NCBI GenBank assembly: GCA_025055075.1
Contig: JANWYV010000015.1
Coordinates: 1 to 64,000 of the forward strand
Source: Blastocatellia bacterium
GTDB lineage: Bacteria; Acidobacteriota; Blastocatellia; HR10
DNA length: 64,000 nucleotides
Direction: 5' to 3'
Part shown: in pieces, positions 12,944-13,945 of the stretch
Position numbering within the stretch: position 1 is the stretch's first letter
Layout: the number at the start of each line of letters is the position of its first letter
Program-made: the position numbers and the translations under genes
Notes under the pieces: generated by a model
What the model was told of the DNA's origin: nothing
Database searches by the model: none
Seen by the model: the letters and a program-made list of their open reading frames with translations, nothing else

Positions 12944-13321
12944 TCACTCCCCTTCGGCCCGTTCAGGCACGGGGTAGAATACCCATTCGTTGAGCGCGGG
13001 GCTCTTTCGCGGAGACGGGCCACTGGATTGGTGCGAAGACTCGCGTTGCCCCCCCTCTTCAATCGGTTTGGCCCGATTCGACAGCGGCTTGCCACTATAC
13101 AGGCCCTCGATCCCGAAACGGTTGAATTGCCGAATCCACATTCGAACGCGACTTTCATGTCGCCCGATCCGCCGCGCGATATCCGGCGCCGAAAGCCCAT
13201 CGGCCGAAAGCAATATGATTCGAGCCCGAATGTAATGGTCACGGGACGGGGGGTTCTTGATCCACTCTTCCAACGTCTTCCGCTCCTCAGGAAGCGGCTG
13301 TCTGGCAAAAGTCGGCGTCAT
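12944..13321 (-). CDS. Orphan helix-turn-helix protein related to the N-terminus of IS630-type transposases
   Basis: About 125 residues from the second of two tandem ATGs (13321; the first is at 13324), behind GAGGAGG. Residues about 8-75 resemble the homeodomain-like DNA-binding region of IS630/Tc1 transposases: PLPEERKTLEEW, RARIILLSADGLSAPDIARR, IGRHESRVRMWIRQFNRFG, GIEGLYSG. The DDE catalytic domain that should follow is absent; the last 50 residues are a polar tail. It is either a decayed transposase or a domesticated stand-alone repressor. In favour of the latter are an intact frame, a near-consensus promoter and tandem 10-base repeats in its leader. No terminal inverted repeats were found around it. 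Confidence 0.6.
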   Translation of the reverse strand: MTPTFARQPLPEERKTLEEWIKNPPSRDHYIRARIILLSADGLSAPDIARRIGRHESRVRMWIRQFNRFGIEGLYSGKPLSNRAKPIEEGGQRESSHQSSGPSPRKSPALNEWVFYPVPERAEGE

Positions 13322-13338
13322 CATCCACCTCCTCGATA

Positions 13339-13358
13339 TTTTATCGCGTTTTATCGCG
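13339..13358 (-). repeat. Two tandem 10-base repeats in the HTH gene leader
   Basis: TTTTATCGCG occurs twice head-to-tail (13339-13348, 13349-13358), downstream of the predicted start of transcription and about 20 bases before the HTH start codon. The position suits an operator for autoregulation. Confidence 0.5.
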
Positions 13359-13387
13359 CTTTGGTTTATTATTAAGCACAACGGCAT

Positions 13388-13415
13388 AGTATACTATCAT
13401 TGACTCAAAAGTCAA
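13388..13415 (-). promoter_or_regulatory. Near-consensus promoter of the HTH gene, overlapped by dyads
   Basis: Minus strand: TTGACT (13410-13415), a 16-base spacer and TATACT (13388-13393). The -10 lies within the 12-base palindrome ATAGTATACTAT (13386-13397) and the -35 is one arm of TTGACT-CAAA-AGTCAA (13400-13415). Confidence 0.62.
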
Positions 13416-13541
13416 GCGTTTAGTATTTACAGATGCCTTGATCATTGGTGTGAATTATGCTCGGGGATGAAGCTCAGGCCATGTTAGGGGACAGCTTGCA
13501 AGTGGCGAAGTCAGGCTTTTGGGGGTGCGTGCCGTAATGGG

Positions 13542-13570
13542 TTGACTTTCGATGAGGTTTCCTCTACGCT
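13542..13570 (+). promoter_or_regulatory. Promoter of the cold-shock gene
   Basis: TTGACT (13542-13547), a 17-base spacer and TACGCT (13565-13570). The implied leader is about 100 bases, as is common for cold-shock mRNAs. Confidence 0.5.
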
Positions 13571-13678
13571 CTTGGCCGTTGCTTCGCAAGGCTCAAAGCG
13601 CTGGCGTGAGGACAGAACCTCATGGTGGATGGTCGAGAGCCCGAGGAGCAATGGAAAATTTTGGGAAAGGAGTTGACA

Positions 13679-13885
13679 ATGCGAGAGACAGGACGCGTCA
13701 AATGGTTCAACAATAAGAAGGGGTACGGATTCATCGAGCGCCAGGAGGGCGGCGATGTCTTCGTCCACTATACAGCGATCAAAGCTGAGGGCTTTCGATC
13801 CCTCGAAGAGGGGGAGGTCGTGACCTTCGACATCGTGCGTGGGCCGAAGGGCCTACAAGCTGAGAACGTCGAGCGATTGAGGTAG
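13679..13885 (+). CDS. Cold-shock protein (CspA family)
   Basis: 68 residues, the standard length of a single cold-shock domain. RNP1 (KGYGFIE) and RNP2 (DVFVHY) are intact, as is the opening [11 protein letters not shown]. It binds single-stranded RNA and DNA and acts as an RNA chaperone. The ATG at 13679 is preceded by AAAGGAG at 8 bases. The gene stands alone between its own promoter and a hairpin terminator. Confidence 0.96.
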
Positions 13886-13910
13886 CACTCGGGGGTACTC
13901 ACTATTTGGT

Positions 13911-13945
13911 CCTGGGCCCTTCTCTTGGGGCTCAGGGCCTTTTTC
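13911..13945 (+). terminator. Intrinsic terminator after the cold-shock gene
   Basis: GGCCCT (13915-13920) pairs with AGGGCC (13934-13939), with an alternative longer CCTGGGCCC/GGGCTCAGG pairing, followed by five T residues. Confidence 0.75.

Follow-up and report, generated by a model that had tools for sequence, protein, structure and literature searches.

A stand-alone IS630-type DNA-binding domain maintained as a host gene behind its own conserved promoter in Blastocatellia

In a 64,000-nt stretch of a Blastocatellia genome (the window), we found a gene for a small protein that keeps the helix-turn-helix (HTH) of an IS630-type transposase and has no DDE domain. It is an old host gene, strongly conserved, with its DNA-binding domain under strong purifying selection; it is fixed at one location in its genus, and a second genus of its family also carries it. 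As the best explanation we lean slightly towards a host-owned, stand-alone transcription regulator with a single IS630/PAIRED-like HTH, which would be autoregulated and may be linked to an operon of tiny peptides.

Table 1 Positions of the gene, its control region and related loci (window positions unless a contig or locus is named)
Feature	Position	Strand	Basis or remark
CDS, stand-alone HTH protein, 125 aa	12944..13321	minus	open frame behind AGGAGG; orthologues
Shine-Dalgarno AGGAGG	13328..13333	minus	sequence; kept in genus
IS630/PAIRED-like HTH, four helices, residues 12-75	13097..13288	minus	Pfam HTH_23; predicted structure
Divergent tail, in the place of a winged second HTH	12947..13066	minus	pLDDT; G005 comparison; dN/dS
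Promoter-leader block, 66 nt	13359..13424	minus	no indels among five family members; profile R1
Dyad TTGACT-CAAA-AGTCAA (TTGACTCAAAAGTCAA) over -35	13400..13415		candidate operator
Dyad ATAGTATACTAT over -10	13387..13398		sequence
Two head-to-tail copies of TTTTATCGCG in leader	13339..13358		species-specific; no sign of function
HTH(IS630-type)-wHTH-TPR-sigma54-AAA+-Fis regulators, ~1200 aa	L040:509-3931; L041, L043, L044, L045		several Blastocatellia families
Tiny-peptide/ECF-sigma operon	G000 contig C53 about 90580-91600 (L113:4081-5031); also L108, L110, L111, L112
Small repeat proteins	L109:5209-5574; L110:2646-3011; L111:3212-3697

A conserved host gene without a transposase half

The first-pass annotation had given 12944-13415 for the domain with its promoter and repeats. 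The open reading frame is real. Two adjacent ATGs stand behind the AGGAGG, so that the coding sequence begins at 13321 or at 13324 (125 or 126 aa); leader and promoter take up 13325-13415. Comparison with orthologues favours the second ATG and thus the shorter protein. This minus-strand frame reads MTPTFARQPLPEERKTLEEWIKNPPSRDHYIRARIILLSADGLSAPDIARRIGRHESRVRMWIRQFNRFGIEGLYSGKPL plus a tail, and its start, HTH and Shine-Dalgarno sequence are common to the orthologues in three congeners (G001, G002 and G003) and in G005, which belongs to another genus of the family; together with the source genome (G000), these are the five family members known to carry the gene.

Pfam identified HTH_23 in the protein (2.9e-13), as well as HTH_28 and HTH_29, and the NCBIfam IS630 transposase model matched at 3.1e-9, covering only profile positions 2-63 of 299. 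Helices were predicted at residues 12-23, 28-41, 46-53 and 57-75, with a block-mean pLDDT of 93-96 over residues 11-70, and the last of them, RHESRVRMWIRQFN (the recognition helix), was invariant in all five family members. The pLDDT was below 50 at residues 86-110, and the tail is probably disordered according to the model; it ends in the genus with a semi-conserved W-FYP-PERAEGE motif. The HTH is that of the first half of the PAIRED-like N-terminal domain in IS630/Tc1-mariner transposases (NF033545; HTH_23/HTH_29 plus HTH_32). The second, winged HTH was missing from the window protein and from the genus. In the G005 homologue a winged HTH takes the place of the tail (HTH_32, 4.6e-15), giving both HTHs in the same order as in the transposases. 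A fold search of the PDB yielded no confident structural match for the protein, the best sequence match among solved structures was a weak one to the PAI subdomain of Sleeping Beauty (E 0.12), and no homologue was found in phages.

Orthologues in the three congeners showed 71-79% identity and had the same neighbours (HU on one side, csp/M16 on the other). The G005 orthologue (67% identity over the HTH) lies in a different place, beside a gene reading as homoserine dehydrogenase. Each genome holds one copy, at a constant location in G000-G003, and no match was found in G004, a genus member of 73% completeness. Homologues of the same length class exist, with open frames of 129-145 aa. Within the genus, dN/dS (NG86) was 0.02-0.06 in the HTH, far below 1; tail values, where they could be computed, were 0.3-0.6.

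DDE_3 had no match in the protein or anywhere in its own genome, and none in G002 or G003; the DDE half was not adjacent to the HTH gene in the relatives examined. G001 has one IS630 element, ~75 kb from the HTH gene, and G005 has one weak DDE_3 match on another contig. No arm pair bracketed the CDS as element ends, and the longest inverted pair near the gene (18 nt, 78%) linked two divergent promoter regions. The earlier reading of a domesticated IS630-type domain lacking both the DDE domain and terminal repeats was thereby upheld, and none of the three outcomes that the annotation had named as fatal to it (no homologues of equal length, dN/dS near 1, a DDE half beside the gene in relatives) came about. 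A recently truncated, decaying IS630 transposase would also match the IS630 model through its HTH, and some IS630 elements elsewhere do encode the HTH in an ORF of its own; against such a wreck stand the HTH dN/dS, the kept synteny and the want of a DDE half nearby or a DDE_3 protein in the genome. We regard it as barely credible, and dN/dS and synteny led us to reject it. Unlike an IS630 transposase, then, the protein has no DDE domain, is encoded by one syntenic copy under purifying selection, and has lost the second HTH in the genus.

Relatives of the domain

In Blastocatellia proteins of 1141-1275 aa from outside the family, the homologous pair of HTH and winged HTH makes up the N-terminus. 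TPR repeats follow there, along with an AAA+ domain of the sigma54-activator type and an HTH of the Fis type (Pfam, one protein). In these fused regulators a transposase domain taken over by the host forms part of a sigma54 activator. The window protein resembles them over the HTH (mostly 34-41% identity) and in a shared WIR-FN segment, and differs in that its HTH stands alone. A five-sequence profile scored fused regulators at up to 58 bits and the phylum's full-length transposases at up to 48. Three trees grouped the stand-alone proteins of f1 with the fused HTH domains and separated both from the sampled transposases; support for this split was 86/78, 84/83 with the HTH alone and 80/68 with the G001 element added. 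The trees rest on one short domain and 12 transposases. With this moderate support, the N-terminal domain of the HTH-TPR-sigma54-Fis regulators, and not the sampled transposases, appears as the closer relative of the stand-alone HTH. Because its nearest relatives are fused host regulators, domestication probably predates the stand-alone gene, and the domain was probably in host service before this gene arose or simultaneously with its rise. Gene fission from a fused HTH-TPR-sigma54 regulator was considered and discarded: the own genome has only a generic TPR match, at 28%.

Promoter, leader and candidate operators

The gene is preceded by a conserved promoter that is sigma70-type by sequence. 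On the minus strand it comprises a -35 TTGACT (13415-13410), a 16-nt spacer, a -10 TATACT (13393-13388) and a start region down to TAATAATAAAC; the hexamers match consensus at 10/12, as near as the annotation had said. The promoters of the five family members aligned from about -38 to +20 with constant spacing and no indels, in the order CTTGAC, a T-rich spacer with TCAA (absent in G003), TATACTATG and TTGATCATrAAC (altered in the window species). Compared with the non-syntenic G005 homologue, the block gave best ungapped scores of 22-34, and the maximum in 200 dinucleotide shuffles was 14; the flanks in G005 are unrelated, yet the promoter block is kept. The conservation of the whole promoter-leader block is thus beyond chance and agrees with the claim that the gene has a promoter of its own. 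Part of this conservation needs no operator, for a strong sigma70 promoter of the ordinary kind lies within the block.

Both dyads reported for this region are present at their places. The half-site centres of the -35 dyad are 11 bp apart, and TTGACT-N4-AGTCAA occurs as a single copy in the genome at <=1 mismatch. A TTGA-N8-TCAA dyad was kept in four of the five homologues; the half-sites drift, G003 having GGTAAA. The dyad over the -10 was kept in 3/4 genus members, being broken in G002 and also in G005. Rfam returned nothing near its threshold. An eight-codon frame (MPLYLIIN-like) follows the -10 at 13360-13390 (minus) in all five homologues, stop-terminated in three and continuous with the main frame in two. 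As a leader peptide it was rejected, as its first codon lies upstream of where the transcript should start and its changes are partly non-synonymous; this frame probably reflects conservation at the DNA level.

The tandem repeat fared differently. The two copies of TTTTATCGCG are there, but the operator role proposed for them was not borne out, as the pair is unconserved and not above chance: G001 has one unit, G002 and G003 have none, and the 64-kb window contains four exact tandem repeats of unit 8-15 versus 1-4 in mononucleotide shuffles. A genome-wide search returned a sole pair, the one in the leader of the HTH gene itself. The suggested control of IS630 copies was likewise dropped, because no DDE_3 protein was found in the genome and the G001 element, scanned within set mismatch limits, contains neither the repeat unit nor the dyads. 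Control of the neighbouring HU and cold-shock genes found no backing either: the adjacency is confined to the genus, and in G005 the gene persists with neither of them beside it. On the plus strand, a likely csp promoter (TTGACT-17-TACGCT, 13535-13570) is conserved in the genus and has only TTGACTTT in common with the promoter of the HTH gene. A sub-threshold Rfam match to the cspA thermoregulator (16.9 bits, threshold 78) lies over the cold-shock gene at 13575-13942 (plus).

A second promoter and the possible function

A sequence-only profile of the promoter block (R1) was run over 11 genomes. Up to E = 10 it returned exactly two sites each in G000, G001, G002, G003 and G005, namely the HTH gene's own promoter (E 1e-16 to 2e-19 in the five genomes) and the promoter of a tiny-peptide gene (E from 6e-7 in G005 to 0.006). 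In G000 the peptide promoter lies at about 91564-91599 of contig C53. The peptides, exemplified by MRGENGQLDLATLLLALLAALQLLGSGSCPIPGVTR, are hydrophobic, 32-37 aa long and of the form GQ-D...LLALL...G-CP; their genes, in 1-5 copies, precede an ECF sigma gene. Pfam had no family for the one peptide tested. The family was present in 10/10 order members searched and in 0/108 other genomes of the class sample.

The resemblance of the two promoters may reflect nothing beyond strong, AT-rich sigma70 promoters in GC-rich genomes, with no specific operator present and the protein acting elsewhere, for example as a nucleoid-type binder. Near-consensus hexamers fit this explanation, as do the GC content of leader and promoter (38% vs 61% for the window) and the fact that other promoters, such as that of groES, are likewise conserved within the genus; it is a real possibility, if on balance an unlikely one, for two results speak against it. 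One is the G005 block score, above the shuffle maximum. The other comes from a comparison, hexamers excluded, in five genus genomes, each with 15-18 further strong promoters: the peptide promoter scored 6.0 to 8.3 bits (best other promoter, 2.5) and exceeded the best other strong promoter of the same genome by 3.5-9 bits. In four of these genomes only the promoter of the HTH gene itself ranked above it, and in G004, where the HTH gene was not found, it came first. The peptide promoters of the genus are orthologous and therefore count as about one observation, plus G005. Resemblance in the start region was weaker, and in the own genome the peptide promoter came behind two unrelated promoters.

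That only one other promoter in the genome resembles that of the HTH gene suggests a small regulatory circuit, and either shared control or a shared promoter type for the HTH gene and the peptide operon is plausible from these comparisons. In the favoured reading, of an autoregulated host regulator, the protein would bind as a dimer following the loss of the winged second HTH in the genus, with each half-site of TTGAC-N6-GTCAA (centres 11 bp apart) taken by one HTH. As this dyad covers its own -35, the protein would limit its own transcription; autoregulation is plausible. More tentatively, the protein may act on the tiny-peptide/ECF-sigma promoter or be co-regulated with it.

The wider distribution of the peptides brings in a serious, if rather improbable, alternative, in which the HTH gene is a target: an order-wide factor, either the TPR-Fis protein whose gene adjoins the peptide operon in G005 and f2 or another, would read the shared promoter features, and the gene would have acquired such a promoter. 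The peptide operon is present in the other order members f2 and f3, with a similar promoter in f2; no HTH gene was detected in either at E 1e-3, so that the promoter type there cannot depend on the HTH protein. The peptide operon and promoter type thus span f1 and f2, the HTH gene turned up in f1 alone, and it could have joined an older regulon. In G005, G006, G008 and G009, moreover, the peptides are divergent from a gene for a TPR protein whose C-terminus is weakly Fis-type (HTH_8 of Pfam scored under the curated cut-off in the two proteins tested). Against this alternative, the TPR-Fis gene of the own genome lies in another contig region, away from the peptides, and the TPR-Fis gene's own promoter lacks the spacer features. 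Small, secreted-looking proteins with repeats such as RESHAGRP or VTAGGRPF come after the TPR-Fis gene; the one tested had no Pfam match.

A pattern that recovers known peptide genes found none near the fused regulators in 14 neighbourhoods; with the peptides found in this order alone, there is no class-wide link between HTH and peptides. A dedicated two-promoter circuit, in which the HTH protein controls its own gene and the order-specific peptides upstream of the ECF sigma gene, is doubtful. If true, it would possibly be a peptide-sensing system not described before, with peptides that are TPR-Fis-linked in other genomes.

Host regulators derived from mobile genetic elements are represented by Ner/SfsB and by antitoxin-derived Xre and RHH proteins (review PMC8987985). 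The HTH protein resembles these often autoregulated regulators in that a mobile-element DNA-binding protein was adopted for host regulation. In the present case the domain comes from a DDE transposase; the part of the review consulted names phage and antitoxin sources, and IS630 is absent from the review's text. A host regulator from a transposase DNA-binding domain is a known kind, and the stand-alone HTH gene is a variant of it; in the literature searched, few bacterial cases of the route from transposase domain to host protein were found. The present gene provides a clear, selection-backed case in which the DNA-binding half of a DDE transposase gave rise to a bacterial host protein; the class has the domain in two forms, on its own and as a fusion with TPR and sigma54-activator domains. 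The promoter comparison yields two candidate target promoters for the protein, and draws attention to an unstudied peptide/ECF-sigma/TPR-Fis locus in an acidobacterial order.
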